A stretch of DNA of 64,000 nucleotides from NCBI RefSeq assembly GCF_910592395.1, contig NC_088323.1:8866001-8930000 (forward strand), read 5' to 3'. This stretch comes from Lineus longissimus. Lineage: Eukaryota > Nemertea > Pilidiophora > Heteronemertea > Lineidae. Below the pieces are notes generated by a model that ran no database searches, was not told where the DNA came from, and saw only the letters and a list, made by a program, of their open reading frames with translations. Below, in pieces: positions 23,355 through 63,237 of this stretch; within the stretch, counting starts at the first letter, position 1; every line of letters starts with the position of its first letter. Made by a program: the position numbers and the translations under genes.

Positions 23355-23363
23355 TCATACAGC

Positions 23364-30064: not shown

Positions 30065-30125
30065 TTACCCCCCCCCCCCCTTCCCCGTTCCCACCCTCAT
30101 GACATGTAGCATTGATTGTATACGA

Positions 30126-30613: not shown

Positions 30614-33160
30614 TAGTATTGTAGGCCTATTGTTACTCACAATCTATTTTTTTGTAATTGATACTGGTAGTATCAATGTGAAATATGCCACACGTTGGGA
30701 GCGTGCAAGGCCTAGTACAATACACCATCATCACAATCAAATATTTCAATAATACACTGTCAACGAGAGTGAATGTTCAACCATCAATCACGTGCATTGT
30801 AGTGTAGCCTACATCCCCCATGACGGCTTGCGCCCCGCTGACACGACGAGCACATGGCTGAGCCAATCCATCGCCTGTAGTACACTACTTTACAAAAATC
30901 GACACCTACTGAAACTTTCACTAATTATTCTCGGAAATGTACTTTATCGTTACATCAATAAATGCACATTCGAATTTCAAAACTACCACTTATTTTTGCC
31001 GTGAAACTGACCTGAGTTATCGAAACACCGTCACTACGAAAAGAGGAAGAAGCAGGTCCGCATTTATCGAAATATTGCTAAATATAATTGTCAAAATGTC
31101 GACCAAATTACCAATTAAATCACAATAAACTTATCAAATGTTCACTCATGTCTTTGGGTGAAAAAATACTGATTTTTCAATCATTCTCAATTTTACAAAT
31201 CACCAATCACAAAAAGAAATAATGATGCAATTACCCAAAATAGATGAGATTTGACCACTGGTATAATTCCGCCATCTTGGATATCGGCATCGTCACCACC
31301 ACTTCAAATTCTAAAGTCTTATTCAGGCCTAATATGTGTCACCTGCTGTGGTAAAATGGCTTGTTTTATCAATAAATAACAAAATATGATCTTTGTAAAT
31401 AAAATCGAAGATCTTCTGGTGTGTTTTTATGTGAATTTATTACGAACTATCAATGCAGCGCAGGGCAGCCATCGTGTTCTCATGCGTAGTGGCGATGCGA
31501 TAGCCATCCGTGGCACTGCTTTTCAAGATGGTGGCAATTGCCCAGTGCTAGAGGCGTTGTAAGGAAAATTGAGAACAGGCCCCTAATGAATGAACTCTCA
31601 ACGATATCGATATATTTTCGTAATTCCAGCACAACTGTTCAACAATGAACGTCCACCGACAATCCCACTTAACGAATATTAATATCAATTCATATCATGT
31701 ATCTTAAAACGCTTTTATTTCATTTTAAAAAGAGTTATCGAGTGAACGATGACCTCCTACCATACCCTCGAAATAAACAGCCAAAATGACCACAAAAACA
31801 CCTTTTTAGAAAAAAAAGCGATTTTTACGAAATAAATGTCATCAGAGACGAAACTAGACACTAATTTAGCTAGGTATGCACAGTAATAGTACCTGAAGTG
31901 ATCGATTTCAAGGAGAAAATACACTGAAAACAACTTTTCAGGAACAGAAATAAGATCACATTGTGAATAATACAGATTCACTATGACTTTGAGATACAAC
32001 TCAGCAGCAAGAATGCCCTATGGCAATAATCTAAAGGTAGACCTTAGCCACAACTATGATAACCGTGAAAGGTTACGAAATTAACGGTATTGCTAAAATA
32101 CCCGATACACAAAGAGCACAGCAGTAGGAAACAACACGAGGCCGAACGGTGCTGCCCTCTGCACTAAGCTGCTGACACTAGAATAGCTGCACGCCTGGTG
32201 GGCACCTAGGAGGCCGAGCCTCAACAAACAACTCATACATGAAAAGTAAGAAATGGCTATCGCTACAAACGGTTTCTACAAGTGCTACAAACATTAATAA
32301 AATATTTACCTCATGGCTGACCTCAATAACTACGAGAAAATACGAAAATAAGCGTTTAAACGGAAGAAGATCACTTCTTCAAGTCTTAAGCACGAAAGTC
32401 TTGGCGGATGCGCCGAAACAAAGCACAACACCAAAACCACGTGTCGTGGCTACAAAACACACGATAACGAAAGAAACTTGGATGTAGATATAAAGATAGC
32501 AACGAGGCCAATTAAATATCAATCGAAAACGACCTAACTAGTCAGTAATCGCTGAAGATAGTTACATGTACTGGCTTGCTCGTCGTCTTTCTGAAAAGTT
32601 TCAAATTTTTTTATAAGTATGAGCATCTTCTGTTTGACCATTATGCTGCTTTTACTATAGTACTTTTACCGCTGTTTCAATATATTCTTCAGCAGATCAT
32701 TACGAGAAAAGCATAAACTCAACCCCGCGCATGCGCAGACGTGACCCGATCTGACCTAATTGGCAGACCAGCCGGTCAATAGAAAATACATTGAGCACGT
32801 AGGTATTGCCATCTCACGGCTTCCAGGGGAACTGGGGGCAAGTTGCCGATAGCAGACATGAAGGATATAATATATATCTATCCCCTGGTCAAATTTCAAG
32901 TAATTTGAAGAAAATTTTAAGTTGAACACATCGACGGTGAAATTTGCCCGATTTTCCAAGCCTAAATGCATTAGAATTGCTTTGAAAAATGGCAAAATTA
33001 GAGAATGTAGTGACTTTGAAGGCTTGTAACTTCGCGCGCGTTGCATGGATTTTAGTTGCCGATAGCAAGTGCAGATGGCGATACCGTATAGAGCACCTCC
33101 ACCAAGTTTTAGCGTATTTGAAGAAACTTCACCGTTGAACATTGGGGTCCTCAAAATCGA
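30614..33160. other. Non-coding stretch with degenerate repeats
   Basis: No convincing gene. From about 32830 a degenerate unit of about 220 bp recurs (AGTTGCCGATAGCA, GTCAAATTT-AAGTA-TTTGAAGAA, GTTGAACA) and leads into the clearer tandem array that follows. Confidence 0.5.
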
Positions 33161-38119: not shown

Positions 38120-39685
38120 AATGCAATCATGATCTCATATTGCAAAGACCAAAAACAATCGATGTCAAAATAAGCATACTCCAATCATGCATTGTTTTCT
38201 TTGAATCAATCTTACCATATACAATTATTGACGCCAGTTGTGTTGTTATCGATTAAACGTTGTCTTGTTAGAACTACAGTAATCGTGCCATCGCGATCTA
38301 CTGGATGTGTGTGTCACAGCAGAACTATCAGGGACGCCAGATCAGAGAGGTGACTAAACATGCTGGTTTTGTAATTTACCTTTATCCTGATCAGCACAAC
38401 TTGTAGCGGATCGAGCTGATGTTGTGGGGGAAAACGATTGTTTCCGATATCAAGTTGGCCTTTTACCCGCCAATAGAGCGACATCAAGGCAGCGCCGGCA
38501 TAGGAGGCTTTGATCAGGAAAGAGGCTTACTGCTTCGTAATTCGATCTGAGGGAATTGTTGCTAACATTCCGTCAAAAGCCGCGCTGGTTTTCAATTCTA
38601 AAATACGTACTTTTTATAATCAACATTTTCTTCCGATTTTCCATCTTGCTCTTGTCCGCTCACCGGTTTCCCCAGTAGACGATGACGTTATCAATTACTA
38701 TAAAGTTGATTTACTTTTGGCAAAATGTTGTCCAATCGAAGCGCAATCTGCCTAATTATATTTTCGCATGGTAAGTGGATGGCGTACTTCTTCCCTTTCA
38801 TACTTGTTGTGAATAACACATGGTTCCATAAAAACCAGAACTTACTTCGTCGCCGTTGTTTGGGCTGGCATTTGGCTGACGAATGTTTGTAGGTTAACCA
38901 CTGCCTGCGGATCAGCGTATACAATTTTTCACACAAATACATTTGAGATTATGTAAATGCTGCATTTCATCACATCCAAGGAGGCTCTTGGTTGAGTTGC
39001 CAGAACCCTCAGTTCCGCACAAAGAAAGAGGCTAGTGGATTTTTCTTTTGAAACTATATGATTAGTGATACACGTGCAAACGTATTTTGAATATCTCTTG
39101 ACTATTAAATCCTCAGTAATCCGTTACCGAAATACAACATGTTTACTTGTCTTTATATCTTTCATGAAATGACGCGATTGGGTTCGCCAATTATGATATA
39201 ATCGCTGAAGGTCACCCCTGGTCGCCGAAATGCAATATTGGTTTAATGGAAGGATCTGTGACTCACATCTCCATTTCAAGCTGATAATCCGTGAGCATAA
39301 ATCAAGCAAGTTAACATGACGGACTATCTGTACCTTGATCGGATGAATTGGACGGTACCAACAAAACGTTTGTTGAAGAAAAGCGTGGTTTGATGCTATT
39401 TGTCAGTCATTTGTCGGTGTAGTGTTTCAGACATACATGCATTGTTTTTCTTTGTTTCTCGCTATTGAGGAGTCATTAAGCTCTCCTGATGGCAGACAAG
39501 GAAATATGTTGACATACCTTTCTCCAGAAAAACAATTATAGTGAATACAAAATCGTCATGGCAATTTTAGAAGTTTCTAAATTTTAAATAGAATTATAAA
39601 AGGAGCTACATGAATGTTTTTTATGTATAATTTAAAAAGTTAAGTTAAAGTACTTTAGAATATATCTGTGAAATCAACTGAACAT
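38120..39685. repeat. Right arm of the long, diverged inverted repeat
   Basis: Reverse complement of 11035-14545, without the 1.6-kb insertion of the left arm. Good anchors are GAGAGGTGACTAAACATGCTGGTTTTGTAATT (38345), GGTTCGCCAATTATGATATAATC (39181) and GGTACCAACAAAACGTTTGTTGAA (39353). Short minus-strand ORFs here are products of the repeat and not supported as genes. Confidence 0.85.
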
Positions 39686-39689
39686 CTAT

Positions 39690-41490
39690 GTGTAATCCGT
39701 TAGTATTACACATGTACTATATTTTGCCTCGAATTACATTATGTTAATTCGGGTACGCAATTGTCGGGAGTGCCATTCTGACCGGTCAAAGGGAAATACG
39801 TGTTCCCATATGTGTAAATAGTAATACCTGACTCGAAGAAACATTTTTTGTCCATAATTGTAAGTCTCCGATTGCCTATATTCATACGATACTCATGAAG
39901 AACTCGGAGTTGCCGCCTGCTAGGGGTAACATCTTTTGAGGGCTGAGTGAACTATGAGATTTATGTGATTTCGGGACTGTGCAATGTGTTTGTCGATCGA
40001 GTAGTGAATTTGCGAATCGAACTGATTCCTGTGATTTCTTTCTATGTCGTGGATCCGAATGCAGTATATAAGTGTGTCACTGAAGTTCTGGTGCTGGTGA
40101 GATCTTCTTTTCGTCTTCCGAACATTGTTTTGGATAAGTCGTAGATATGGCATGCCGCCATATTGCTGTGAGGATTCTCTTGCATTTTCGTTCCTTTTTA
40201 CATTACGAGCAGTGTTAGGCGGTATGTGTTCGTGCCAGTGTGCCCACAGTACTGTATTTCGATCTGATCTTTGAAAATAAGCGCCTCGCGAACTTTGGGG
40301 GGGGGGGGTGGTGTGGTTATTTCCGCGACGTAGTATTGACGCTTGACGATTGACGGCGCAGTGGACAATATACTTTTTGTTATGCATGTATTGACTATTG
40401 TGACCTTGGACAAGCACTTGACTTGACATTTTCGTTTAAAACTGATTATGAACTTTTGCCTTAATTTGACATAAACGCTTATGCATGATCGTAAACATTT
40501 ATTTGCTTTTCGTTCATTCTGCATGCTATGAATTGACATGATATTGAGGGACCGTCACATCATTTCATAACATATTGATTTTTATATGCAGATAACCTTT
40601 GGTGGGTAATGAAGTATTTTGCTTAGATATCTTTGGTTTTCACGCAGCATGTTTAATGCATACTTGCTTTGCTTTCCTCCTAGCACAGCTTGCATGGTGA
40701 TTATAATTTTGTTGCATAATTTCAGTAGAACAGCTGGTATTATCTTGATAACTTATTATCACAGACATGGTACTACATATCAGTAGTCATTTTGTTTGCA
40801 TGCATGTTTTAGTTGACCACTGATAGGTATAAGCGGTATTTAGTTAACTAGTTACTGTTGTGTAAATGTGAGTGTGAGCCATTTATTTGATGTCAATTTC
40901 TATAAGGGTGAGGAAGTATTGTGAGGAAGGTCTGGATTGTTGATATTGAATTGCAAACTAGTGGATGAAAATTTTAGATTTTGACTTGGTCAGGTCAGTC
41001 CAAATTTATGTGACGTAGTTAGGTTGGACTTGCCGCATTGACGTTGGAATTCAGGTATATACGGATCACTATCAGCAATAGTTTAGTGAAAGATGATTGA
41101 TGAATTTTCAATTGCAGCCTTTCTTTGAGGACCCAAGTTTCAATTTCAGCAGTCATTTGAGGAAATTGATAAACCGATTTTCAATTTCAGCAACCCTTAA
41201 AGGTCATATACGTGTATCAAGGTTTTTTGCCATTTCCTGCTGTAAGACGATTTCAAAAGTGTACCTAACACTTTATACAATACAGAAAACCAAATGCAAT
41301 TAGCTCCATCCATTTTGAAGATATAGCCAATTATGTGTTTGACAACTTGATTACCTGATCAGGCTAGCAACTGGCTTGTTAGAGCCAGGCGGCGGGTTCA
41401 GCAAAAGTTGTGATGTAGATCATGTCATGCAATCATAAAAGCAGGAGGGCCTTAATTAGTTATGCACACCTGGAAGTAATGTGTTTCATT
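39690..41490. other. Non-coding stretch upstream of the THAP exon
   Basis: No coding region supported; a 10-G run at about 40298. It probably holds the promoter and 5' UTR of the THAP gene near its right end, but no specific element can be named. Confidence 0.4.
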
Positions 41491-41494
41491 CACT

Positions 41495-41848
41495 ATGGTG
41501 TATTGTGTGGCTCCGAATTGTGTCAAGGCTAGCACAAAGAACAATCGAATGACGGATGGGACCCATTTTCATGAATTTCCAAAGCCAGTTGAACGAGAGA
41601 GGAGGAAGCTGTGGATTCGGAAGTGCAAACGTTTGGAGTGTTGGAAGCCTGGGCCTTCGGCCAAACTTTGCAGTGATCACTTTATCGATACGGATTATCA
41701 CATGAAGCGGGATATCTGCATCCAACTGAATATTAAATGCCACTTGTTAAAAACAGCTGTTCCATCTGTATTCGATTTGACCAACCCCACTTACATGCGA
41801 CAGCCTCCAAAGGAACGTTCGTTAGCCAAAAAACGTAAACATCAAGAA
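41495..41848 (+). CDS. THAP-type C2CH zinc-finger domain, probable first exon
   Basis: ATG 41495 opens a complete THAP domain. It has YCVAPNCVKA (first Cys pair), HFHEFPKPVERERRKLWI, CKRLECWKPGPSAKLCSDHF (second Cys and His) and the closing AVPSVFDL, the AVPTIF-type box. A basic tail KKRKHQE follows, then GTGAGT after GAA, a good splice donor in phase 0. THAP domains bind DNA and occur in host transcription factors and in P-element transposases. This exon lies 226 bp outside the left TIR of the adjacent P-like transposon, so as mapped it belongs to the host locus. Without splicing it would end after only two further codons. Confidence 0.85.
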
Positions 41849-42064
41849 GTGAGTTGAACACTATTTCATGATTTATACACTGCTGATGCACACAACACTC
41901 ATACTACCCAAATGGCACATGTCATCCACTGTACAGTGGCTACACAACCATGTCAATTGCATTTAATGCCCGAGGCTGCTGAGGTCGGTTGTTATACATA
42001 ATGTGTAGGCCCTATTGGGGCCTGTGATACCGCATAGTGTCTTCTTGTGTTCCAGCCATAGCAA

Positions 42065-42073
42065 GGTGACAGC
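42065..42073. repeat. Target site duplication, left copy
   Basis: GGTGACAGC immediately left of the TIR and repeated at 51757-51765. Because the flanking base can be assigned either way, the true duplication is 8 or 9 bp; 8 bp is usual for P elements. Confidence 0.85.
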
Positions 42074-42440
42074 ACAGGAAGTTGTACCTAGGGGGGCCGG
42101 AGGCCCCTTGGGGCTTGGGGGGCCGAAGGCCCCCTTAAGGGCCGAAGGCCCGAAGGATGGAAACGCTTTTTATGTCATGTGGAAAATGCACTACCGTATA
42201 CGAAGCAGATTTTCGCAAAACACGACCTCACAAAAACACCCCATTTAGGACACAAGATCAAACTTTCTCGCACATAAATCATACTCTACACGATCTATGA
42301 ACACAGAGCATTAGTATGCCACACTGATTTTGTAAAAAATCTTTCCTCTTCGCTCCGAAATTGGAGCTTTTATCAGAAAATCGAGGCGCGACCTGCAACT
42401 TTCAAAAAGTCAAGTTGTAATCGTGGGGAAGACCTTATTC
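42074..42440. repeat. Left terminal inverted repeat, 367 bp
   Basis: Starts ACAGGAAGTTGTACC and ends GACCTTATTC. It matches the reverse complement of 51390-51756 with three substitutions. Its outer 70 bp hold nested GC-rich palindromic words (GGGGCC, GGCCGAAGGCC). Confidence 0.95.
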
Positions 42441-43360
42441 TATTAATACATCGTGACGTCATTCAGTCACATGAGCCAGCGAAAGAAAATAATTGGATAT
42501 CAATTTTAAACGGGTTATCTCGACTCCAGGTATTCATCTCACCACACACTAGTATTTGATTGACAAATTATAACCTGGATACGAGTTTGTTCCTGAAGTT
42601 GAATATTGCGGGAAATTTAAATATTGCGGGATATTGCCACGCGGTGCTACAAGTAGTGTTATCCTTAGTATTTACAATGGACGTGATATCGGACGCATGT
42701 GGCTGGTAAATATCACTTATAAACATGTTTTACGCATCAGAGTTGCGTGTCAAGCATGCTATTCAACTTAGAGTTTGCTTTGAACCACAAACCCATTTCG
42801 ATTTACAGGGTTGTGGTATGTCCTGACAAGGCTTGACAGGCTGGAAATATAAGTGGTTTCATCCAAACCCTCAGCCCCTCAAACTTAAAGAGAGTGTTTG
42901 GTAGCAGCTATAGGCATGCAATATCAATTTGTGCCTAATTTATCCTCGTACGAATATATATATATATATTTAGTATACATTGAGTGCTGAATCTAACACT
43001 ATCAGTGACGACCTGATCCACTAGACGTATTAGTTGTGACGCCATGCATTCATACATGTGTTCATACATAAAATGTTTTTAATGTAATGCACTTACGTTG
43101 CACGGGTGATATTTGACGTCAGATATGGGGCAGAACGATCCTCTCCTTTGACTCGTCAGTAAGAAGAAGTTACGTAGTACATGTAACGTTAGTTCTAACA
43201 CTGTGTTTCAGATCTGTATCCCAGTCGGTTGTGAAACAGGAAAAAAGTGTCCGGTAATAGTGTATAAAGATAAAAACGTCCTAGAGAAGCCACGTCCACA
43301 AATAACTCAGATATTCAAAGCACATAATATGTTCCTCCGATTCTATTCGATGCTGCACCC
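42441..43360. other. Left interior of the transposon; unresolved 5' part of the transposase gene
   Basis: The transposase must begin upstream of 47552, and this stretch is one candidate location. A (TA)n run at about 42955-42971 and a possible acceptor GTTTCAG at about 43211 are visible, but no exon with a recognisable DNA-binding domain was found. Confidence 0.35.
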
Positions 43361-43470
43361 CCCCCCCCCCCCCCCCCCCCCCCACCTACACGCACGCACA
43401 CACGCACACTCTACCTTGATATCTTCCCTTTCCCCTTCCCCTTCCCCTTCCCCTTTCCCTTCCCTTTGCT
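43357..43470. repeat. Poly-C, CA and (CCTTCC/CTTCCC)n simple repeats
   Basis: About 25 C, then CACACGCACA, then pyrimidine hexamers. The hexamers encode the (Lys-Gly)n tail at the end of the helicase-PHD protein on the minus strand. Confidence 0.9.
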
Positions 43471-46400
43471 TGTTTTACAGATCGAGCATGACCAAAACGT
43501 GTTCTGTGACTTGAGGAAAGGTTCTTGTCCGCATATAGATTCACAACCCCAGTGAAACCATCTGTTACACATATCACAGCCGATGCTGTTATCCGAGTCC
43601 TTCAAAACGTCAGATTCATCCAAACATGCCTTGTGGCAGATTGGGCATTTGAATGAGCTGTCATCCATTAGTGGCTTCTTAGGTTTTGAAGACATAGATG
43701 GTTGCACATCCTCCTCTTCCTGGTCTCCTTTCCTTTTACACGTCTTACCCTCCGTTAGGGCCGCAACTTTGTTCCTAAGGGCTAACTTCTTTGTTCTGGG
43801 AATAGCCTCTTTAATGATCTGGGCGGCATCATGTAGGCAAACTTTCGTGTAATGGCTCACAACCGCATTGAAGATGTCCAGCTGAATAGTGGTTACAATG
43901 TCGTCTTCAAGTTCCGTCACCTGAAGGGGTAGGTCCACACCAGAAAATACATCAAACCAGGCCACCAAAAGATTGTCGTCTGCAGCTATACTATTGTCTA
44001 TTACCTGGTGAAGGTTCTTACTGTGTTTATCAAGAGCTGCTTTGTTTAGGAAGGGCAGGAGTCGAAGGTGTAAGTCACAGAAAAAGGCGAAAAGTTTGTC
44101 TCCCATGTGGAATAGCCCATGGCTGGCCTGTTGCTTAAAATCTACGAATTCTAGAGTGTCATCGTCCATTGTATCATTGTGCACGTCCTCCTCAGTCACT
44201 CTCAGCGCGTCTAAAGTCTTGCCCTTCAGGTAGTTAAAGTTCTTTAACTCCGAAATCTTATCACCCGTCGCTGATAATCTTCGTGCGCACTGTGTTGTTC
44301 GCCTGAGTGTTGCGCCTCCAATATATCGGATTTTACTTTTTGCTTCTTTGCTCAAAATGGTAATGTTCTCCACAGACGGTGCTGCACCTCCAGCTACAAC
44401 TCTTTCTGCTTTTGACTTGATGCTTTGTTTGAACAACCACAGTAAAAGTTTACTTGAAAACTTCATTATCGCATCCTTTCGCGACTCCTCTTCACCCGAT
44501 GAGAATAAAGTCTCAACGAGTTCAACAAACTCAGACGATGAACAAAAAGCCAATGTGTCTGTCCACGCTTTCGTCCACTCGCCTGGTCGTCGCATCGATC
44601 CTCTGATGATTTCGGCACATTTAGAGTAGCATGTAGCGGTAAAACCATGCAGGGCCTCACTGTTAGCTTCCATGATGATAGCAGCCGTTTCCGATAGTGC
44701 TGGCCGATCCAAAGTAGTTACGAATTCATCTAGATTGTAGGGAGACTCGATTGTCTCGGCAGCATCGTGCCCCGTTGGTCTCTCCGGAGGCGTCCATTCG
44801 TAGCTGCAAATGAGCATAAGATATATGAATTATCATAATACAATGTTTTAGATGGGCGGAATTCATATAGAAATATAATAAGATAATGGGTTACTTAGTG
44901 TGCTTGGTATAATCAAAAGAGCATGCAATTTCACCATAGGAAAGGAAATCAATCTATAATCGTGTTTTTTTAGTGTCTTTATGTTCATCAAAATTAGTGA
45001 TTTCAGTTTTGTGATTAGTTAATGTGATTGATAATGATAATTCAATCTCACCTTCCACGGCGAACTGTGTCGTTATCAAGGGGGTCGTCTTCGATTGTCT
45101 GCCTACAGCATTCCAGGTCTTGTCTTGGCTGCATGTTTTTGATTTCGGCGTAGTATTCATATACTTCTGGTTTATGACGAAGGGTCCCGTACCTGCTATT
45201 GTAATTTATTATTCTCAAACCAGTCTTTGTGACGGAACGTCCGATGGCAACCCCTAACTGTCCGGCCGTAAAAAACCCGGAGCAGTCGACTTCCACGACA
45301 GGAAGAGTCAAGCCTTGTGCCCGGTGTACAGTGACCGCAAAGGCCAAAAGCAACGGATACTGCCACCGTACAGCCCGTGACTTTCCCTCTCTCCTGTCGT
45401 AGAAGTCAAACATCTCCTGCTCCAAATGAATAAGCCTGCCTTGAATGTCTACGATGGGTCCATCTTCATCTAATCTCTTGATGATGCCTCTTGTTCCATT
45501 GGTTATACCACCTGTAAGGAATTAAATAAATGACAGTAAGGAATTAAATAAATGACAGTGTTGGGTGTACGGTACTACAAATAAACCTGCGTTGGGGATT
45601 GCAGTGAGCTTTCCAAATCGTCAATGTGTGAACACCTTCAGTAAACGTTGATCTCGCAAAACTCACAGTCGTCATTTCGTGTCGGCCTTTAAAACGCAAG
45701 CTAAGTTATATTTTCATGTGATTCCGCTCACCTTTGATATTCCGAATGATGATGACAGGGGCTCCAACCTTGAGATACAGCAATTTTGCCGCTCGTGATT
45801 TTTTCAGAAGACGTGTTTCTCCTGTTAAAGAAAATTATCATAATCATTATTGTAGGATTAATTTAAATTAGCATTTTTTGAGAATGTGGGTAAGATGCTT
45901 TTAATGAACGGGTAAGATCTGACACTGACAGAATTCAATATCAATAGTGGTATCCAGCATGCAGGATGTATGTTCCGATTGACTTGGCTTATTGCTCGTC
46001 CGATTCGAGGACATAGTCACAACCGGATTACTACATTATAATGCTTTTGAATATCAAATACCTTCCGTTATTAGCGGTCTTCGGGCAAGACTCAAGATTA
46101 TTACAATCAATGGGAGACACTTGAAGTAATAACTTGGCCATATCATGGGCCATATCATTAGTTCTAAATGATAATATACTCACCACAGTCCCTCGCTCGA
46201 TATAACTTCATTTCTCCTCTCATCTTTTCTAAACCACGCATGTTGTTAAATTCTACCTCACTCCTTGTGCCGAATAGTTTAACAGGCTCTTTTGAGAGCG
46301 GTCTCCCAAGCTCCTTCAGAAGCTCCTCAGTCTCAGCTGATGGCTGGCCGTCACAAAGTTCGTTTACAGCCTTGATCAGATCGGGCTCGTTTTGTCGCAC

Positions 46401-49400
46401 CACCTTTATTGAAGAAAATACGAAGCAAATTAGCTCTTGAGCATTGTAAAAGCGACAATGGACAACTATAAAAGTTCTGCTGGTGGGTGTGTTGTGACTT
46501 CTTATATAGCCCATCCATAGAGTAATACTAGTATGTTACGGCAGAACAGAAAACAATGTTCGCCAACAATGTTATAGTATGGTAACTTGCACATCCTGAA
46601 ATTTACTTCACATGAAGAACACTCTTTGAACCATCACACATTATGAGAAAAATCCTTACCTGGTTAAGATTAATCTTGTGGGGGAACATTTGTTCGAATA
46701 TAGAAGAAGACAAACAATAACTGCCATCGTCGTCAACAAGCATATTGGGGACAGGAGCAAGCTGCTTGAAGTCACCACTGGCTATGATTTGCATCCCACC
46801 GAAGACCACGTCAGTTCCTCTAACCTGGAAGATAATTTCAATTGAATTATAACCAGGGCCTGGTTGTTCAAAACAAATTTGGTCGCTAACACTGGGTGTA
46901 CTCTTAACTTGGCGTTATCTACCTTCAGTAAAGCCCTTAGAATTAACGCCAAGTTAATGAATCAATGTTCAATGGTTTCTCGAATGGTGACGATGATAGC
47001 ACTAATTACCTTTCGGCATAGAAACTCGACTGTCTCCAGGATATTTCTTGACAGCATGCCAACCTCGTCGATCAGTAACACATCAGTTTCTTTAATTCTG
47101 TTCCTGGCATCCAGAAACCCATCTTTAGTTGCCATATTCTGGACGATCTCGGGCTTTGTGAATCGTCCGTCATTGATGGCTGTCCACCTATGAATCGTCA
47201 TTGCATCCCGAAAATTAGATGCCGCCATACCACTCGACGTTGTAATGGCAACCCTTTTTCCGCTATCACGCAACACCTCGGCAATCTTCCTGGAAAGATT
47301 AAATATTGGTACAAATATAAGTAGCCGACTTTTCAAATATTTGCGTTTCAGCAAGTGAATAAGTGGATTAGCTAATTTCATCAATTGTTTTTGGCCCAAA
47401 CAGGTCACATCAAGGATATCCTTGGTCACATATATGTCTTCTGAGGACAATGTCACAACCACAAATTTGCTGGCGTCGTTCCATACGTTCGATTTTCTGT
47501 AACTCATGCCATCACGTTGTAAACGTATGATTTATTGTTATTATTTTTCAGGATTGTGGTCAACTACAAGGCTTGCGAAGAAACTGACGACAGTCACATA
47601 TACTTTTCGGACATGTACACGGATTACGAACAGGTTAGCTTTTAAAAACTGCCTACGACATAGTTAACATGATTCCGATATTTCCTGACTATAAGAAAGG
47701 TGTAAACTTGACTTAAGGCAAAAACTCAATGAGCTTTTGCTTAAGGCAAAAACACAAAAAGCACCTCACTGCTCTTGTGAAGGAAGTAAGATCACCGGTA
47801 TGAGGTGGTGCTCATCGTAACGTAATCTGAATGTACTCTTGAGAACCCACAAGGCAGTCCCTATCGATTACCTTAAAGAGACTACCTTGTTTTACATACT
47901 AGTATTTGTACACATATTTGATATTGTCAACTATTCCAATTATTATTATTATTGATATTATTATTATTATTACGATTGCAGCACCATTCTCAAACGTCCT
48001 CGTTTCGGCACAGCAAGCTTGTCTTCGCGAAGATGGTGTCTCGAATCTTTCCAAAGATGAAGGTTAAAAGAAAGTCGCAAGGGAGTGTGTACATTTATTA
48101 CGGAATTGAAAAACGTGTCAAAGAAAAGGATTGTGCCGTGGTGGAAAAGAGGAGCTTGAGATGTCAAGTGGGTCGCGACAACTGCGACATCTCCTATGGA
48201 GAAACCGGCTGGAACTTTTTTTGTAGGGGCAAACAGTTACAGGCGGCCGATTTAGAGATTGATTGTTTACTTCCCTATTCCGATGCAAATTTACTGTGCT
48301 TAGGCTATTTATTGTCGACGCAACGTTTGTGCACATCAAGAAGCTCGGTCAATTGTAAGGAGATTCTTTCTGTTTTATCAACATCGGATGTGTGCCCTTC
48401 TTGCCGAAAGTGGAAGAGTTCAAGGGTCTGGCGGGAAAAGATGCTCGAAAGCGGCAAAGAAAACTTACCACCAGCACCAGGTCTAGAGGAAGTTTTTCGA
48501 AACATCAACGCAATAGAGACTGAAGCCTTTGCAGTCCCGGAGCCGCGTGAGCAGGATTATGTGTTCAATCCAACTATTGAACTAACAGAAGAGGACAGCA
48601 TGGACATGAAGGCCATCCTCGAAACTGTAATGCCCCACGCTCCCTCAAAACTAAATGTTCTACTTCAGTCCCAGGCAAATAACTGTAACAATAAAGACCC
48701 GAGAACAAGACGATGGGACCCAAACCTGATAAGTGTCATGCTCGGTTTATATTGCTCGTCGAATCGTGGATATTCCCAGTTGAAGGGGAGTGAGATGTTG
48801 GTCCTTCCCTCACAGCGTCTTCTCCGTTATTACAAAAATATCATCACACAGGAAGCTGGCTTCAACAAACAACACTTACAATGGATGCAAAAAGAAGCCA
48901 AAAGACAGGGTAAATACTGAATTAATTTTTGATGAATGTTCGTGGGTCCAACTCGCACTGTGGTCCAACTGGAGGTCTTCATCAAGAAGAGATGTACATT
49001 GTGAAGTTCCCCAAATACAGGAGTTGTCTTCAGCATTATGTCTTAGGCTACTTAGTTTGAATGAGATGAAATTAACTTAAGTACAGTTACTGTGCTCTAT
49101 GAAAAATGTTAAGATACAAATCCAAATCGATATAGGCCTTCTAGTAACTTGATTCAGATGATACACCCATTTCTTTCCTTTCCAGGTGCATCCGGAATTG
49201 CTTGCCATGGGGGTCTCATTCTCGATGAGATGCAGATTCAAGATGACTTACAGGTAAATAAAACAATCAACATAAGACAGCAATATGAAGACGACATCAT
49301 GAATGGTTGTAATTTTTCCATATTTGGAACATGCTTGTACTCTTAGAAATAAAGGTTTTTGAGCTTGCTTTAGGATTCCCAATTCTAGCCAAAATCCTGG

Positions 49401-51258
49401 AGCCATGGTCTTCTCTAAAATACTAGAGCCTGAAGTATTGGAAATGATGTCCATTTCGTCCTAAAAGTTACATTCCACCGAACTTTTATTTGCCTCGTTA
49501 TATACATGGTACATTTTTTTTCAGTTTGTTAGAAGAGGTTCGCAACTTCAGCTCGTCGGTGCCATCAACGTGGGAGAAGTTAATGATGATATAAGGACGA
49601 TCGTCAATGGCAAAATGGAGATAAAAATGGCAACACACGCCCTGCAGTTAGTGTTTCAAGGATTTCATGGCTTCCGTTGGCCAATCGCATACTTTGCAAC
49701 AGATACGGCAAAAGCATACGAATTAGCGGAAATATTCTTGGAGGCAGTGGATATATTAGACGAGTATGGGTTTTCAGTCGAGTACACTCTCATGGATGGA
49801 GCTTCAACTAACAGGTCTTTCGCTAACATCTTATTTGGTGGTGTTGACCAGATAGCCGCTGAATTTACCATACGGAATATTTTTAAGTCTGAAGGATACA
49901 TCAGCATCATGCAGGATATCAAACATGTCATCAAGAAAGTTCGCAACAACATTGAGTCATCGAAGGCAAAACACAGGGGATCACCTGGACGTTACTTGGT
50001 TCTCGGAGGAAAGGAAATCGTCTGGGAACATTTTGAAGCGGCATTTAAGTTCAATGTTCACAGTGGGCTTAAATATCACAAGGCTCTCACTAAGGAACAC
50101 GTGGAAATAACACCAGCTTCAAAGATGCGCAATAAACTAGCATGTGACGTACTAGATAAGAATATGCTCCATCTAATGGAGCGTTATCAGATGGCTAAAG
50201 CACAGTCAAAAGGGGAAAATGAAATTGATGTCAGTGGAACCATCAACCTACTGAAACAGACGTCTAAAGTGGTAGAAATATTTACGGACGTCAATCGGCC
50301 AATCAGGGATGTGACTGACCCAAGACTTAATATCCTAGATGATGTGGCGACCTTCTTCAAAACGTGGGAGGCGGATATAGCATCAACCAAACTTCTCTGC
50401 TGTAAAAAGAATGCCATGACTGTCCAGACGAGAGAGGATGTTATTTCAGCCATCACAGGATTCACAGGACTGTGTCGCAGAGTCATACCACGCTTGGGAG
50501 TGTCAATCGTCCCCGGTTACTTCAATTCTGATGTGGTCGAGAATATCTTTTGCCAGCAAAGGGGCATTCTCAACGGATTAAACACAAACCCCACGATTAG
50601 ACAGTATGGCCCGGGTATCAATACCATCGTCCTGGGCCACGTCACTGTATCGAGAAAGTCAAATGCTGGCGGAGCACGAGCTCTTCCGTTTAACGCCACA
50701 ACACCCTGTCCTCTCAACCAAACTTGGAAAAGCAAGAAGCTGGCAAAGAACATTCGGGTCTAAATTGTGTTCCTCTAATGTGACCTGCTGTGCATCATGA
50801 AACTAATGGTGTGTCTATATGTACTATATATCTTAAACATAGCCGGAAACTTTGGTGGATAGGTTGTTGCTTGCGGTGAGGTCCACAAACCCTTCCAGAC
50901 AGGAGAATGAGTCTTTATAATACCTCCATGGTCATAGTGACTCATTTGTATATTCTGGAGTTGATAAATTGATATAATTAAAGCCTCTTTCAAGTAAATG
51001 TACATTATATTACCCCAAGAACGTATACTAGTATTATGCATTGATGGAAGTGAAGGTAGAGGAATTATAGTGCTGAGCTGGTGATCAACTTGCCTGGAAT
51101 CACATTTCCCTAAGTCATGTAAGTACCATGTCATTGTTCATTGATATTTACCGCATTAAAAATGTCTTGCCGGTTCCACATTGACCTGTAAGCAACAGAC
51201 TGTGACCCGTTCTTGCTATTTCCATAGCATGGAGCTGTTCTGCATTCAATTCGGACAT
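43411..51258 (-). CDS. PIF1-family helicase with C-terminal PHD-like finger, 904 aa, seven exons
   Basis: Exons (minus strand): 51258-51152, 47289-47010, 46824-46660, 46403-46184, 45821-45732, 45511-45052, 44803-43411. All introns are GT-AG, and the total of 2715 nt is 905 codons with no internal stop. MSELNAEQLHAMEIA leads to Walker A TGQCGTGKT (residues 24-32). Then come motif Ia VAITTSSGMA (49-58), motif II LLIDEVGML (107-115), motif III GDFKQL (146-151), APVIIIRN, and motif VI VTVHRAQG (347-354): a full PIF1-type SF1B helicase core, an ATP-driven 5'-3' DNA-unwinding type. The last exon adds a 460-residue region of unknown fold ending in a C4-type PHD-like finger (CPICHKACLD, IGCDMCNRWFHWGC, WSCSICK) and a (KG)n tail. 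The ATG lies 132 bp inside the right TIR, so its promoter may be in the TIR. Confidence 0.88.
47552..50763 (+). CDS. P-element-superfamily transposase, four exons recognised, 5' end missing
   Basis: Exons 47552-47633, 47982-48909, 49186-49253 and 49525-50763 (TAA) join in frame through GT-AG introns, giving at least 771 residues. The second exon has a Cys-containing region (TSDVCPSCRKWKS) and the P-type lead RRWDPNLISVMLGLYCSS. Exons 3-4 carry the RNase H-like core: LILDEMQIQDDL (Asp codon 49224), YTLMDGASTNR (Asp codon 49795) and SDVVENIFCQQRG (Glu codon 50539), the D-D-E set of P/THAP9 transposases. Between them lies the GTP-binding-type insertion with SKMRNKLA. A THAP domain is not present in these exons; the first base of exon 47552 completes an upstream codon, so at least one earlier exon exists. 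It would cut and paste the element by binding the TIRs. Confidence 0.88.
47938..47971 (+). repeat. (ATT)n microsatellite before transposase exon
   Basis: ATT/TTA trinucleotides ending 10 bp before the acceptor ACGATTGCAG at 47981. Confidence 0.9.
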
Positions 51259-51389
51259 TTTTACAGCACTTGCTTCGATTTAGAATGTTGGCGCGTTTTT
51301 ATCCACACGTGCCGATCACGTGTCGAGGGAATCACACGGGGATTTCGTCTTTCAAGCAACAGCCAATCACATTCATTTTATTTATAGAC

Positions 51390-51756
51390 GAATAAGGTCT
51401 TCCCCACGATTACAACTTGACTTTTTGAAAGCTGCAGGTCGCGCCTCGATTTTCTGATAAATGCTCCAATTTCGGAGCGAAGAGGAAAGATTTTTTACAA
51501 AATCAGTGTGGCATACTAATGCTCTGTGTTCATAGATCGTGTAGAGTATGATTTATGTGCGAGAAAGTTTGATCTTGTGTCCTAAATGGGGTGTTTTTGT
51601 GAGGTCGTGTTTTGCGAAAATCTGCTTCGTATACGGTAGTGCATTTTCCACATGACATAAAAAGCGTTTCCATCCTTCGGGCCTTCGGCCCTTAAGGGGG
51701 CCTTCGGCCCCCCAAGCCCCAGGGGGCCTCCGGCCCCCCTAGGTACAACTTCCTGT
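51390..51756. repeat. Right terminal inverted repeat, 367 bp
   Basis: Inverted partner of 42074-42440, ending GGTACAACTTCCTGT. The three differences from the left copy are one C/T in the outer GC-rich part, one T/A in GC(T/A)TTTAT and one A/G in TGCA(A/G)CT. Confidence 0.95.
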
Positions 51757-51765
51757 GGTGACAGC
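51757..51765. repeat. Target site duplication, right copy
   Basis: GGTGACAGC, identical to 42065-42073. Confidence 0.85.
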
Positions 51766-52089
51766 GACACAGGTCAGTGTCACACCTGAAGTGATAAACG
51801 TTTACATATTTACAAAAAATGATGATTAACACTAGACCAGTTGCCAGTTGCCCTCCTTGGCTTCCCTCAGTCTCAGTGATGATGAGGCCGAGTCCATGAC
51901 ATGGCAGATGGCAAATGTCCTTCAGAGACTGTTCAAATACATACAACCATTGAACCAATACAAAGCCATCCAAGAAGTGCCAGAGCATCAGATAAAGTCC
52001 AATTGTGTATAGTAGTAGTGGATGCATGTCATGATGTAGTGCTGTGTGCATAGAGAACAGAGTGAGAATGTAAACAAAACTTGCCATTT

Positions 52090-52281
52090 TCTGTTGCCTG
52101 CACGTTCAGGGCGTTCATCCTCCACTTCCTCATCACTTTCGTCCGAATGATCACTCTCATTATGATCTAGTGATATCAATGGCTCGAACATGTATGGCTC
52201 AACGTTTAAGTATCCTTCTGTATCGACCAAAACATCCTCAAATTCACTGCTCTCACTCTCTGAACTGTATGCGGAAGCCAT
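52090..52281 (-). CDS. Acidic N-terminal coding exon, function unknown
   Basis: ATG at 52281 (minus) opens MASAYSSESESSEFEDVLVD, followed by a Tyr/Phe-containing stretch and an Asp/Glu/Ser-rich segment (SDHSDESDEEVEDERPERAG). The frame continues to 51988, but after NRKW it becomes hydrophobic and non-protein-like. A GC-AG or weak GT donor near 52088 is therefore likely and I treat this as a first exon. The layout resembles the N-termini of invertebrate proteins whose next exon holds a Cys-rich (P2X7-tail-like) domain, but that exon is not seen, so this is tentative. The P-like transposon is the next feature downstream. Confidence 0.45.
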
Positions 52282-52289
52282 CTTGCTTT

Positions 52290-52998
52290 GTTCTGACTGA
52301 CACGACCTACGTCATCAAAAAATCCCTAGCGGCCACATGTGGAACTAATCTAAAGTTGTGTGTGGTGGGAAATTCAAATAGTTCCAAATTGAAAATTGAA
52401 ATAACTAAATAATGACTTTATTATTAGAATTTTTTTAATGTCTGGGATCTTGTTTTTTTAACCCTCAACATATTTCATGAGTATCAAGCATGTTTTCAAA
52501 CCTTGATATATGACCTTTAAGGAGACCATCAGTTAGTACCTCCTGCATCTCTTATATATATTTGATGTTCAATCAACAACTCTTACTCACATACCTAGCT
52601 TGGATAGGGCTGTATTTATCAGTAGAGGTCATGAAGTCATTAATTATGTATATGAAATGTACCAACTTCTCGTTTGGTTAACAAAATCTTTGCTTTTTTT
52701 ACCTAACAACTTTCTTTAACCCTCCTATAAATTAACCCAAACAGAAATGACGAGAATGTACTGACTGCACAAGACAGTCCAAATAGTACTACATACTGAT
52801 CTGTTAATATCCTCACATACCCTGGTTATATACATAGTCAGTTCAACTTAGCAAAATATACTAGATTTTCAGATGGTTGAATTATAGAACTGGTGACTAA
52901 ATAGTTGGTTAGTTTGTTAGACTATCATTACGGTAGCCTGTAGTATATTTCACATCATATATCTTTAATATTGACTTCAAATATTCATATTTTCTATT
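52290..52998. other. Non-coding; possible LTR/leader of the first gypsy-like element
   Basis: Precedes a gag-like region. No second copy is available to prove an LTR, and no other feature is seen. Confidence 0.35.
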
Positions 52999-56914: not shown

Positions 56915-57595
56915 TTAATGCAAATGATGGCCAACATAGGGAATTCCTGGAGGGTTCGGATACAGTCCCCTAACCAATGTGATAACACAATCAGGGATAA
57001 TTTCCCGGTCACTGGTACAGCTCCAAACAGTCTCATCTTCACCCATATTTTGCAAACTCCTCTGCTTTTTTTGAAGATAGCGATAATCCATCCATGCAGC
57101 CCTGTCCTTGAGCATCTTCCAATACCTCTTATAAAAACCCTTTCTCAAAGTATTGTTTTTTTTCTTCGCTGCTTGACCAGCACCCAACCATCTGGGACGT
57201 TTGGTGGTGACACAAGGACGACAGTAACAGAGTGTACACTCTTCACTGGCAAGGTCCGGCAGAATAAATCCATGCTCTCTTTCTTCATCGTGTCCACCTT
57301 GATTTACAGGGTCCAAGGGAGCCACATTGTTCCCAGCATCGCTGTCATGATCGTCTGAGCTATCCTCCATGTTAGGTCCATCAACTGTAGATGATGATGA
57401 TGGCACAGGTTCAACAGTATCCTGGACTGATTCAGTTCTGATACATTGTATCCCTTTATCCACCATTTGTGGTTCTGCTTCCACTAAGTCCATCCCATGA
57501 AAAGTGAAAATACCTCTTATCAATTCCCTTTCTTCCTCTGTGACATAAATTTGGTATAGCAATTTTTGAGACATGGCAAAAAAGTTAGCATTCAA
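56915..57595 (-). CDS. Kolobok-associated second protein, 226 aa
   Basis: Intact minus-strand ORF, start ATG 57595. The N-terminal third has YQIYVTEEERELIRGIF, then an acidic Ser-rich linker. The C-terminal 100 residues are CTLCYCRPCVTTKRPRWLG, LRKGFYKRYWKMLKDRAAWM and DCVITLVRGLYPNPPGIPYV. From memory, without a search, this Cys-rich C-terminal module is widespread in invertebrate uncharacterised proteins near such transposases. It may be the C-terminal DNA- or metal-binding part of the transposition machinery. The 123-bp gap to the transposase stop could be an intron or true intergenic space. Confidence 0.6.
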   Translation of the reverse strand: MNANFFAMSQKLLYQIYVTEEERELIRGIFTFHGMDLVEAEPQMVDKGIQCIRTESVQDTVEPVPSSSSTVDGPNMEDSSDDHDSDAGNNVAPLDPVNQGGHDEEREHGFILPDLASEECTLCYCRPCVTTKRPRWLGAGQAAKKKNNTLRKGFYKRYWKMLKDRAAWMDYRYLQKKQRSLQNMGEDETVWSCTSDREIIPDCVITLVRGLYPNPPGIPYVGHHLH

Positions 57596-57718
57596 AGACT
57601 GGCTCTAGTCTAAGTGTGTGAGAAAAATCAGAGTCAGCAATTTCATCTACCTAACCCGAGCAATAGAATTGTCCTGAGTCAAGGGGGGATAGGTAGGCCT
57701 AATATAGGACTCCGATTA

Positions 57719-59530
57719 CTACGTATAGAAACTTTGTACCCATTGCTCCCAAATATCTGACCAAAAATTAAATCTCTTTTTCTTTTTGATTTCTCGTCCC
57801 ACCATTCGCCTTGGATTTCTAGAGTCCTTTTCCAGCACAGTGGACGTCACCTCGCTATCTTGGTGCTCATTCCAGTCCAGGACTGACAAGTTGGTTCGGA
57901 TTCGGTAGTTGGCCCTTTCGAATACGATTCTTTTGTTGTGATATTGGAGCAGAGAATTATTAAAACTTTCGACATAATGCGTATCCCTGCATCCAATGTA
58001 AAGATGCGGTGATTTATAAACCAACAGACTGTGAAGATACTTCTTGAGGGCTGCCTCTGCAGGGGCTGAAGATATTTCTCGCTTGCTGGGTTCATAGTCA
58101 TGATCAGACCGACATGGGGACTCCTGATGACAATTGGCATGATTGTTCTTATAGTGCTCAATCACATTATCTATGCTGGCTTTTAGTCTTTCTGTATCCC
58201 CCTCACAGCGTTTGATGCACCAATATATATGAGTTTTTATAGATGCTGACTTATCTGCCAAGTCAACAAACCAATACCTTCCTTCTAAATATTTCCTCCC
58301 CTTTGTCAGTTTCGCCATTCCTTTGGCCACACCCTTTGTCATATGCCAGGTATCTAAAGAAGTAACGGTTGGGGAGCGTTCCACACGGACAAACTTAGTG
58401 ATCGAGGCATTGTTATCATGTGAATGCACTCTGATTGGGACACTCTCTCTGTCAAAATATTCATAGATCCTCCGTGTTCCCACCATTTCGTGCCTTTGAG
58501 TGATTGGATCGTCATCTTTTGAAATTACCTCATTCTGTAGGACCTTATGCGTATTTTCGCACAGGCAGACAACATCAGTAAAGCGGGCATTTTTTCGCCA
58601 ACAATGTCTAGCGTCAGTAGCAATGTCAATACCACCCAAGCCGGTACTTTCAACAGAAGCAGCAATTTCTTCCAACAAAGCATCTGATTTTGACTCCTTC
58701 ACAACTCCATCCGTGACAGGAAGATACGAATCTTGGAATTTAGTAAGTGTCTTGTCTCCCATTTTTCCAATGTCAGCTGCATCACATATACGTTCATACT
58801 GATTCGGCAGGATTCCTGAGACAAAGTAACTATGGGCCATCCTTAGATTCACCGTAAATTTGCCTCCTTCCACATGGGGTGACGTCGATCAATATATGTT
58901 GTGTTTGCCTGTTTGGCAAGTGACATGAAATAGACCGACATGGCCATCTCTTGCAGTTTTTTCCTCCCGGACTGCCATTTTTGATGTACATGTCCTGTGG
59001 TGCAAGCAAACTCGGTCCAACAAATTGTCCAAAGATTGAACTGTCATTAAATATATTGGTGATTTGGTTTCATTCTTCTGGCAGTATTGGTAAGAAGTGC
59101 CACTAGGTTCACTTTGGCATTTATCAGTTGATGATGATGATGCATCTTCGTTGTCCCCCTCAAACGTGTTGTGCAGTTTATAAAAATCGACAAGTTCCTT
59201 CAAAAGCTGGTAATTGGTTATCTTTGAGGCAGTTCCTCCACCAAGATGTCTTTTTATGCCGTCTATGTCATCAAATAGGTTGACTTTTTCGTTTTCAGAA
59301 TTCGCCTTGAATTCTAAGCATCCCCGAACGATAAATGATGTCTTCTGGCTTTTTTCCTTCCTCTTTCGGACTTTCGAAGGACTGTCAGATGGGAATCTCT
59401 TCCTTGGGTTCTCCAAACGCTCCTTTTCTCTCGATCTTACAGGTACAGGAATTGGTGACGGATGTTCATTTGACGACCCTCCAGCAACTGATGCTGAATT
59501 CAGACTTTGAAAGTTTTCTTGTTCAGCCAT
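57719..59530 (-). pseudogene. Kolobok-like transposase with one premature TGA
   Basis: One frame of 604 codons from ATG 59530 to 57719, broken only by TGA at about 58884-58886. The N-terminal 213 residues are Ser/Lys-rich with a basic RKRFPSDSPSKVRKRKEKSQ segment. The catalytic part has GGIDIATDARHCWRKNARFT, VPIRVHSHDNNASITKFV, TSLDTWHMTKGVAKGMAKL, THIYWCIKRCEGD and DTHYVESFNNSLLQYHNKRI. The DGR-like strand, D-x-N, WH-x2-K, W-C-x2-C-x-GD and E-x2-N motifs in this order match Kolobok-type transposases. The rest is intact, so the stop is recent, suppressed, or part of a short intron. Confidence 0.8.
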
Positions 59531-59534
59531 TGTA

Positions 59535-60190
59535 AGATTCAGTACACAGCCTACTATTGCATTATGTTTTCAAAGAATTACCTTTCTCCCCACCTCAAAA
59601 TAAGGGATGGACTCTCCCAATCCTTCCTGCACCCTGATGTACTCAAAAACTGTTATAGTAGCACTTCAAAGACCTTTGGCATCTGGCAAAACCATCCCAA
59701 TCCCATTTTCCCCCAGTAACACACTTTGCCAGCTATCATTTGACTTCCTCAGGTCAAGAGTGCAATGAACTATAAATGATCTATCACCCCACCACCTCCA
59801 AGGAAGGGGGTGTATCATAGAAAATTACTGAAAGACACCAGGATACAGGTATCACCAAGATAGGATGCACATCACCAAAACCTGAGATGACCCCTCAAAA
59901 ACTCAAGAGTCTGTGGGCTAATACTGTACCAGGATATCTCATGTGGAAGACTATCACATAACAGATTCTGCACATTGCCCTTGGTCATAAACCACAAATA
60001 AAACACAAATACTATGTGTGTGAAGAGATGAATTTTATCCAGGAAGTGCACTAAAACCACGTTGTATTTCGTTACGAGTGACGTAGCAACCTATTTATAC
60101 ATGTACCTATCACCAAGACCTAAATACTGCCCACTCCGCTCAGCAGGATATCTACCTGGGAATACCTTAACTCCTGGCCTGGCCACTAGC
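59535..60190. other. Right non-coding end of the Kolobok-like element
   Basis: Holds recurring short words (CCAGGATATCT at about 59930 and CAGGATATCTACCTGG at about 60141; ATCACCAAGA three times) that may be subterminal repeats. No gene supported. Confidence 0.45.
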
Positions 60191-60429: not shown

Positions 60430-60916
60430 GTTCTCCGCGGTCCTGCTAATAGTACAACAATTTGGCCAGGTGAGTTCATTGAAGTTAAACTACCATTAGA
60501 CGATCCAATCGACCGCGACTCCGAATCCGCAATCGAACCTCGCCTAGATTCGAGTCGCTCCGCTGAAACATAGCCGATCCCAGATATCATTACCAGTGTC
60601 GCGGGAAAAATCCGTATCCCAAACATGACAAATGAACCGGTTATGAAAGCGAAAATGAACATCTCTGTCAAATCCGCCATGTTTTGTCCCTGATGATAAA
60701 CCGGCAGGTCTATCAGTCAAAACACCATCTACAGGCCTACCGCAGGCAAACTCCACCAAAAAACACACTGCCAATGTTCGCCTTGACCCAGACGGTATAC
60801 TCCTAACTGACATAGCCGCTAAAAACCGGTCAACTCTAGCTGAGTATGACAGCGTCTTTAACCCTGAATATAAAGGCTATAACGGTGCTTCCGGTCCATT
60901 CGAAGCTAAAGTAAAT

Positions 60917-61771
60917 ATGGGTCCCGTACAACCTCCACAACGAAAGGGCCGCCTACCACAGTACGTCCGCAACCATCTGGTAGAACTCCAGGACAAATTT
61001 GACACACTTGAAGAACAAGGTGTGTTCAAACGTCCTGAAGACTTAGGTATAACTGCAGAGTATCTGAACCCTTCATTTCTAGTCAAGATGCCCAATGGTG
61101 GGTTTCGACTTGTCACAGCATTTGCGGACGTGAGCAGTTACAGCAAACCCTAGCAATCGCTAATGCCTGATGTTGATTCTACCTTATGCCACATCGCCCA
61201 ATGGAAGTATGTCATAACCACAGATCTCACTAGCGCTTTCTATCAAATTCCACTTTCGCGTGATTCCATGAAATACTGCGGAGTATGCACCCCCTTATGT
61301 GGAGTTCGTGTGTATGTCCGATCCGCAATGGGCATGCCAGGCTCAGAAACCGCACTGAAAGAGCTAATGTGCCGTGTCACTGGTCATCTCCTTCAGGAAG
61401 GTATAGTTGCTAAAATAGCAGACGACCTCTACATAGGAGGCGACATTCCTGCAGAACTATGGCTTAACTTCAGAAAGTTCCTGCACGCCCTCCATGTTAA
61501 TGGTTGAATTTGGAACTTGGGTGCCCTTAGAGCTAACCTCCACCGCATTGCTACCCTGAGTAATTGTAACCTCCCCGAACAGGTGAAAGATCTTCGGTCT
61601 TTCATTGGAGCATACAAAGTCCTCGCTCGAGTAATTCCAAACTGCTCTAACGCGTTAGTCGAATTAGACAAGCTTAATTGCAGGGCGCGAGTCAAAAGAG
61701 AAAATCGAATGGTCAGACGATACACGCGAAGCATTCAAAAATGCTCAGAAAATACTAGGATCACACCGTAG
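60917..61771 (+). pseudogene. pol: Reverse transcriptase of gypsy element 2
   Basis: Frames 60917-61153, 61163-61507 and 61517-61771, separated by stops or frameshifts at about 61153 and 61507, read in order. Landmarks are [40 protein letters not shown] (first catalytic Asp), [27 protein letters not shown] (the DD box) and DLRSFIGAYKVLARVIPNCS. Catalytic aspartates are kept; the frame is not. Confidence 0.9.
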
Positions 61772-62054
61772 CATCACGCTACCACGCGCAGAAGACTTAG
61801 TTTGGATCGTTACTAATTGCGCTTTCCGTAACTCAGGCTATCGTGCTACATTGTACGTAACGCACGCAAATAAACTACACCAAGCTGGATTCTTCAGTAC
61901 AAAACTTCGTGATCGACAATCAACCTGGATACCATGCGAGATAGAGGTATTGTCTATTGCAGCTGCGATCAAACATTTCAGTCCATACATCGTTCAGTCT
62001 GAACATAGCACCTGCGTACTAACTGACAGTAAGTCATGCGTACAGGCCTTTTGA
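61772..62054 (+). pseudogene. pol: RNase H of gypsy element 2
   Basis: [20 protein letters not shown] and [12 protein letters not shown] are typical Ty3/gypsy RNase H pieces (S-K-L, Glu, T-D-S-K). Ends at a TGA at 62052. Homology continues weakly to about 62540 in shifting frames. Confidence 0.85.
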
Positions 62055-63110: not shown

Positions 63111-63237
63111 TTAGCGTGCGCAACAGCAACCCTGAACGCGCGTATCCGCTCACGAGGCCTATCTGCACGCGAAATGTGGACCCAAAGAGATCAATTCTCT
63201 AACCGACAATTACAATTCTCCGACAACAAATTTATAC

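Follow-up and report, generated by a model that had tools for sequence, protein, structure and literature searches.

A P-superfamily transposon of Lineus longissimus that very probably carries a resident PIF1 helicase gene, nested around its transposase gene

P elements are the model system for studying cut-and-paste transposition and how excision is coupled to gap repair by the host. Canonical P elements are about 3 kb long, have short terminal inverted repeats (TIRs) and encode only a THAP transposase, and target duplications in the P superfamily measure 7-8 bp. PIF1-like helicases in mobile DNA are best known from Helitrons, and PIF1 helicases in general occur typically in Helitrons and in large DNA viruses. 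According to the part of the source drawn on here, the Drosophila P element is 2.9 kb long, with 31-bp TIRs, a THAP domain, an 8-bp duplication and no encoded helicase, and the double-strand break that its excision generates is closed either through homology or through end joining, the Bloom helicase being one of the host factors involved (PMC7776569). Galileo, a P-superfamily element of Drosophila, has TIRs of up to 1.2 kb and a 7-bp duplication with the consensus GTAGTAC (PMC2775673, part of the text).

Here we describe, from one copy, an element of ~9.7 kb on contig NC_088323.1 of Lineus longissimus, located in a stretch of 64 kb that was analyzed as a whole (hereafter, the window). The element has a P-type RNase H core with the D-D-E residues and TIRs at both ends, and we place it in the P superfamily on the basis of the catalytic core, the TIRs and the duplication. 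THAP was sought and not found, thus this is not a canonical P element; it is a real, unusual variant of the superfamily, and probably an autonomous cut-and-paste transposon with two interleaved genes (Table 1). With the Drosophila P element and THAP9 it shares the catalytic core fold, the D-D-E residues, TIRs, a short direct duplication and a transposase gene split by introns. It differs from the Drosophila P element in size (9.7 kb vs 2.9 kb), in the length of the TIRs (368 bp vs 31 bp), in having two genes rather than one, in an RFX-type winged helix where THAP would stand, in the additional PIF1-PHD gene, and in a duplication that reads as 7 or 9 bp when the ends are symmetric, as opposed to 8 bp. 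Galileo is similar in its long TIRs and, on one reading, in the 7-bp duplication, whereas the duplicated sequence (GTGACAG in the 7-bp reading vs GTAGTAC) and the hosts differ, and no helicase is mentioned for Galileo in the part of the source used here (PMC2775673).

Table 1 Coordinates of the element's features in the window.
Feature	Position	Strand	Content
Left direct repeat copy	42065..42073	.	GGTGACAGC; 7-bp reading = 42066-42072
Left TIR	42073..42440	+	368 bp; starts at 42074 if the 9-bp duplication is true
Helicase exon 7	43411..44803	-	Mainly helical region, PHD-like finger, GK-repeat tail, stop
Helicase exon 6	45052..45511	-	Motifs V and VI (TVHRAQGLT, VAIGR)
Helicase exon 5	45732..45821	-	Pif1 2B region begins
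Helicase exon 4	46184..46403	-	Gene model and homologue match
Helicase exon 3	46660..46824	-	Motif III (GDFKQLAPVP)
Helicase exon 2	47010..47289	-	Walker B (LLIDEVGMLS)
Helicase intron 1	47290..51151	-	Contains all identified transposase exons, on the opposite strand
Transposase exon a	47552..47633	+	RFX-type winged helix, first part
Transposase exon b	47982..48909	+	Winged-helix remainder, four-cysteine cluster, region aligned to P element HTH
Transposase exon c	49186..49253	+	First catalytic Asp (LDEMQIQDD)
Transposase exon d	49525..50763	+	Second Asp (MDGAS), insertion domain region, catalytic Glu (DVVEN), stop
Helicase exon 1	51152..51258	-	Start codon, Walker A (GQCGTGKT)
Right TIR	51390..51757	-	368 bp; outer limit 51756 if the 9-bp duplication is true
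Right direct repeat copy	51757..51765	.	GGTGACAGC; 7-bp reading = 51758-51764

Comparison of the two 368-bp TIR arms revealed differences at exactly three positions (42108, 42368 and 42398). The initial annotation had likewise reported three mismatches, with a length of 367 bp, and had set the arms against the short TIRs of canonical P elements; Galileo already provides a precedent for long TIRs in the P superfamily (PMC2775673, part of the text). The 22-bp TIR tip occurred twice in the window at ≤3 mismatches (0 expected), these 64 kb contained no further copy of the element, and the tip had no match in the collection of viral contigs. The flanking direct repeat is perfect and can be read as 7 bp (GTGACAG, with element ends CACAGG..CCTGTG) or as 9 bp (GGTGACAGC, with ends ACAGGA..TCCTGT), and one copy leaves both readings standing. 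The duplication of 8-9 bp that had been annotated was perfect as claimed and can be read in the 9-bp form, but 7 bp is also readable and a symmetric 8-bp duplication is absent, as 8 bp would require ends that are unequal by one base. Among 200000 random position pairs in the window, at least seven bases were shared in the duplication register by 32 pairs, and nine bases by 4.

We considered GC-rich TIR ends as a G-quadruplex or hairpin obstacle that would need PIF1, and rejected this candidate. The motif scan of both ends detected no G-quadruplex motif in the TIRs, folding of four TIR pieces was not markedly above that of shuffles (z = -1.20, 0.96, -1.48 and -0.89), and 24 of 200 shuffles folded as well as the TIR tip; the ends thus give no hint of an obstacle requiring PIF1. 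Two G-quadruplex motifs are located inside the element on the minus strand (43358-43383 and 43426-43464), near the 3' end of the helicase gene.

The transposase family profile matched a single PDB sequence, that of the Drosophila P element transposase (E 3.8e-28), with which the three catalytic residues (D-D-E) align, in agreement with the P-type D-D-E transposase of the initial annotation. Based on fold alignment and Pfam, an RFX-type winged helix occupies the place of THAP. The identified exons of the window transposase had no THAP match in Pfam at E ≤1, and THAP is absent from the 20 Pfam families listed for 29 transposase relatives. The winged helix had gone unmentioned in the initial annotation. 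A THAP open reading frame (41480-41857) was evaluated as a missing transposase exon and rejected, being outside the TIR, with its place already filled by the RFX domain. The start codon lies in a further upstream exon; the search among exons of <150 nt found neither a start exon nor a start codon, and yielded six weak candidates, none convincing. The fold alignment with the P-type core spans the insertion domain region, and PF21788 (GTP-binding insertion domain) matched 5 of 19 and 4 of 29 alignment members and not the window protein.

The helicase gene is intact, as had been annotated, with seven exons, GT-AG borders at every intron, and 904 amino acids ending in a single terminal stop. It belongs to the PIF1 family by its helicase motifs and PIF1 2B domain (Pfam and motifs), with the fold taken from the homologue P0002. 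Exon 1, which is far from the others, is supported by Haliotis P0003 (residues 1-35 vs 51249-51145, 60% identity, E 3e-8) and by Saccostrea P0002 (vs 51270-51145, 45% identity, E 3e-6). When compared with structures, the helicase family profile matched eukaryotic PIF1 (E 3e-95 to 6e-79), bacterial PIF1 (E 7e-64 to 3e-41) and the Helitron protein Helraiser (E 2e-32), as well as PHD structures. The protein has the SF1B helicase fold and motifs of cellular PIF1 (yeast, Candida, human), from which it differs in an extra helical region, a C-terminal PHD-like finger and its location in a transposon. The helices of the exon 7 region were read from the predicted structure of P0002. For the middle region (~residues 450-790), the window piece had no Pfam match at E ≤1, and five helicase middle-region pieces gave isolated, scattered matches (best 0.00074, CFAP61_dimer). 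In the fold comparisons, the structures listed were taken up by matches to the helicase part. The PHD-like finger with which the helicase was said to end is borne out by a C4HC3 pattern, but not by its Pfam PHD score, which at 17.8 bits is under the cut-off of 24 bits, and the window helicase's own Pfam list (E ≤0.01) does not include PHD. The almost full-length Haliotis helicase P0003 has a gene model without PHD.

The two genes are nested, with the Walker A exon of the helicase located beyond the transposase gene and the identified transposase exons enclosed by the first helicase intron. The helicase gene lies between the TIR arms from end to end, as do the transposase exons that were identified, which upholds the earlier claims that both genes lie between the TIRs and that a P-superfamily element has its own helicase gene. 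We assign the helicase to the element from its position, flanked by the TIRs on both sides and enclosing the identified transposase exons; that the helicase is resident in a P-superfamily element is very likely.

To profile the relatives of the two proteins, we searched protein and contig collections. At least 14 proteins related to the helicase were detected in the first search (best 7998 candidates scored) and at least 16, eight of them new, in the profile search (best 7997 candidates scored). The named family members are from Saccostrea, two Haliotis species, Pinctada, Argopecten, Ruditapes and one priapulid, and two plant proteins were distant matches. The transposase had at least 45 relatives (best 6518 candidates scored), and those named are from Pinctada, Haliotis, Tegillarca, Sinanodonta, Mytilus, Mizuhopecten and Mercenaria; one sits in a Sedimenticola MAG and probably represents host DNA. 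The named relatives of both proteins are thus mainly molluscan, and include Saccostrea LOC134261804/LOC134277961, Haliotis LOC125383642 and LOC124136148, and Pinctada FSP39_023224 (uncharacterized). Relatives of the helicase and of the transposase are likely encoded on one contig in Haliotis rufescens. The transposase profile, searched with one pattern, had 71 pattern matches in viral contigs and 61 in genome contigs, none of which was confirmed, and the same was true of 58 pattern matches to the helicase middle region in genome contigs. With the helicase profile, at least 189 relatives were detected in viral contigs, of which the best 80 were kept; these matched only up to helicase residue 423 and were thus taken for ordinary PIF1 helicases.

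The helicase tree comprised 39 rows (the window, P0001-P0011, P0060-P0064, five others and 17 viral-contig rows), with P0065, vL077 (19 stops) and eukaryotic large-virus helicases left out. Sixteen of the 17 presumed family rows formed one branch (support 100/100), separate from the viral-contig rows and the two plant rows; P0064, which had at first been counted as family, was placed outside. The phylogenetic placement of the helicase is thus within a branch of its own, apart from the plant row with a Helitron domain (P0014). The transposase tree (46 rows, quick method) did not resolve the window's close neighbors. Given that the neighbors of the window were resolved differently in the two trees, we do not claim co-inheritance; the trees agree weakly in that each has a scallop and Haliotis within the five rows closest to the window.

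The nesting bears on whether the element is a composite of two, in which intron 1 of an older helicase-bearing TIR element or host gene received a P-type element. The identified transposase exons are indeed wholly within one intron and on the opposite strand, but we consider such an insertion very unlikely. Inverted repeats (≥12 bp searched) bracketing the transposase within the intron were absent from its borders, with six weak pairs elsewhere, so there is no sign that the transposase arrived separately and later. Also, an outer element with the helicase alone would be without a transposase, and a P insertion lacking TIRs of its own must be old, but the transposase frame is open. It is also improbable that the helicase is a passenger, i.e., a PIF1-PHD gene of the host that was captured by the TIRs of this particular copy and has no role in transposition. 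DNA transposons can take up host genes (PMC6431247, part of the text), the description rests on one copy, and a pairing of helicase relatives with a transposase is indicated in Haliotis only. However, the helicase brackets the identified transposase exons, unlike a gene merely captured at one edge, and simple end-to-end capture would not generate this layout. The reading frame being intact across all seven exons likewise argues against a passenger, as do the facts that the helicase constitutes a separate family with the extra helical region, that the PHD pattern is present in 8 of 18 helicase rows, and that members of this family and of the transposase family are found in one animal group.

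We also doubt that the helicase was acquired from a Helitron or a virus. Helitrons and large DNA viruses are where PIF1 helicases would be expected, viral PIF1 models match the helicase fold, and the group adjoining the family in the tree includes the viral-contig row vL004 together with P0013 and P0064, with weak support (92/64). On the other hand, the long stem branch of the family (0.7) is without a viral row, in a tree built without eukaryotic large-virus helicases, and the plant rows P0014 (bearing the Helitron_like_N domain) and P0067 are far from the family. The match of the family profile to Helraiser is far weaker than that to eukaryotic PIF1, and the window helicase's list of 24 Pfam families includes no Rep family. 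Like Helitrons, the element is mobile DNA with a PIF1-type helicase; unlike them, it combines TIRs and a duplication with a D-D-E transposase, a Rep domain was not found, and the helicases are only distantly alike. Judged from its sequence, the helicase does not look Helitron-type.

Overall, a P-superfamily cut-and-paste transposon with a helicase that serves the element is the likely and best explanation. The winged helix would bind sites in the TIRs, and the P-type core would pair the ends, excise the element and insert it with a 7- or 9-bp duplication. That the helicase serves the element's own propagation is reasonably probable, and its use in long-tract gap repair is a more tentative suggestion, as is the copy-number gain or donor-gap repair proposed in the initial annotation. 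PIF1 helicases promote long repair synthesis with DNA polymerase delta, and an element of ~10 kb can regain its donor copy only through long synthesis, thus its own PIF1 could favor full copies. Of the candidate roles of the helicase, the most likely would be to drive long repair synthesis across the ~10-kb donor gap, or replication of the element, and so to favor restoration of full-length copies over internally deleted ones, while the PHD finger could guide it to histone tails or chromatin. The nested antisense layout would force both genes to travel jointly, and helicase transcription, running antisense through the transposase, could dampen the transposase, so that one transcript may limit the other.

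It is less likely than not that the helicase and its PHD finger act directly in the chemistry or regulation of transposition (end unwinding, chromatin loading or antisense control) and not in gap repair. The PHD finger suggests chromatin reading, as the family profile matches PHD structures, and the antisense nesting permits transcript interference; moreover, with the Drosophila P element lacking a helicase, the need for one would stem from something special to this element. However, P element chemistry runs without an element-encoded helicase in the part of the source used here (PMC7776569), which makes a step after excision the more likely one for the helicase.

No description of a P element combined with PIF1 was found by title and start of abstract in the open-licence PMC literature, and a catalogue entry may exist; nor did the literature found describe the two families of uncharacterized molluscan and metagenomic proteins as one element. 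In a pearl-oyster paper, regions that are non-syntenic between haplotypes are reported to be enriched in transposon-related domains, PIF1-like helicase among them, and the term "P element" does not occur in it (PMC9646362).

It is possible, at somewhat less than even chances, that the element represents a P-superfamily lineage widespread in molluscs, in which THAP was replaced by an RFX-type winged helix and a four-cysteine cluster, a PIF1-PHD partner gene became fixed and wrapped around the transposase gene, and the helicase restores the donor copy so that excision becomes copy gain. The interleaving explains how a large accessory gene might remain locked to a transposase. If the reading is true, the P catalytic core can swap its DNA-recognition domain, and THAP would not be an invariable component of the machinery. 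An animal cut-and-paste transposon would then bring its own repair or replication helicase, and the element-borne PIF1 would make the control of donor-site repair by a transposon directly testable.

The whole THAP profile was matched by an ORF that is oriented toward the P-type transposon and lies outside its left TIR, about 215 bp away. This ORF is a piece of an adjacent gene or of an older element, not of the P-type transposon. Further repeats and mobile or possibly mobile sequences were detected in the window (see table). The BEL/Pao retrotransposon retains long open frames, with an integrase core match (E = 2.6e-7) slightly below its cut-off. In the LTR-retrotransposon remains, neither the match to a reverse transcriptase (E = 0.004) nor that to an integrase zinc-binding domain (E = 0.0002) reached its cut-off. 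The Mutator-like transposase and its two adjoining ORFs, for which no Pfam match was obtained at E values up to 0.01, are perhaps another DNA transposon; an acidic ORF on the same strand may or may not be part of this group. The 136-bp inverted pair is possibly a fold-back or miniature element.

Repeats, retrotransposons and ORFs outside the P-type transposon.
Feature	Position	Strand	Evidence
Repeat family, two diverged inverted copies	11036-14497; 38152-39677		several blocks, 76-86% identical
BEL/Pao retrotransposon	19287-24857	+	PF05380, E = 1.2e-35
Inverted pair, 136 bp	30120-30255; 30484-30619		97.8% identical, spacing 228 bp
THAP-domain ORF	41480-41857	+	Pfam, E = 2e-13
Acidic ORF	51991-52311	-	no Pfam match
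Mutator-like transposase and two neighbouring ORFs	57719-58885; 58892-59569; 56918-57604	-	PF20700, E = 2.1e-8 (transposase)
LTR-retrotransposon remains	about 60659-63789	+	weak reverse transcriptase and integrase zinc-binding matches

Among the database relatives, a 460-aa entry from a Sedimenticola MAG (P0052) is a partial P-type transposase of the same family as that of the element, most likely representing DNA of the host mollusc binned with its symbiont.

The Walker A motif is present in the helicase relatives P0002, P0003, P0004 and P0005. Four others (P0001, P0007, P0008 and P0009) start just past the point that matches intron 1 of the window helicase, as if a distant exon carrying Walker A might exist there too. 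Given where these four begin, there is a hint that intron 1 occupies a shared position.
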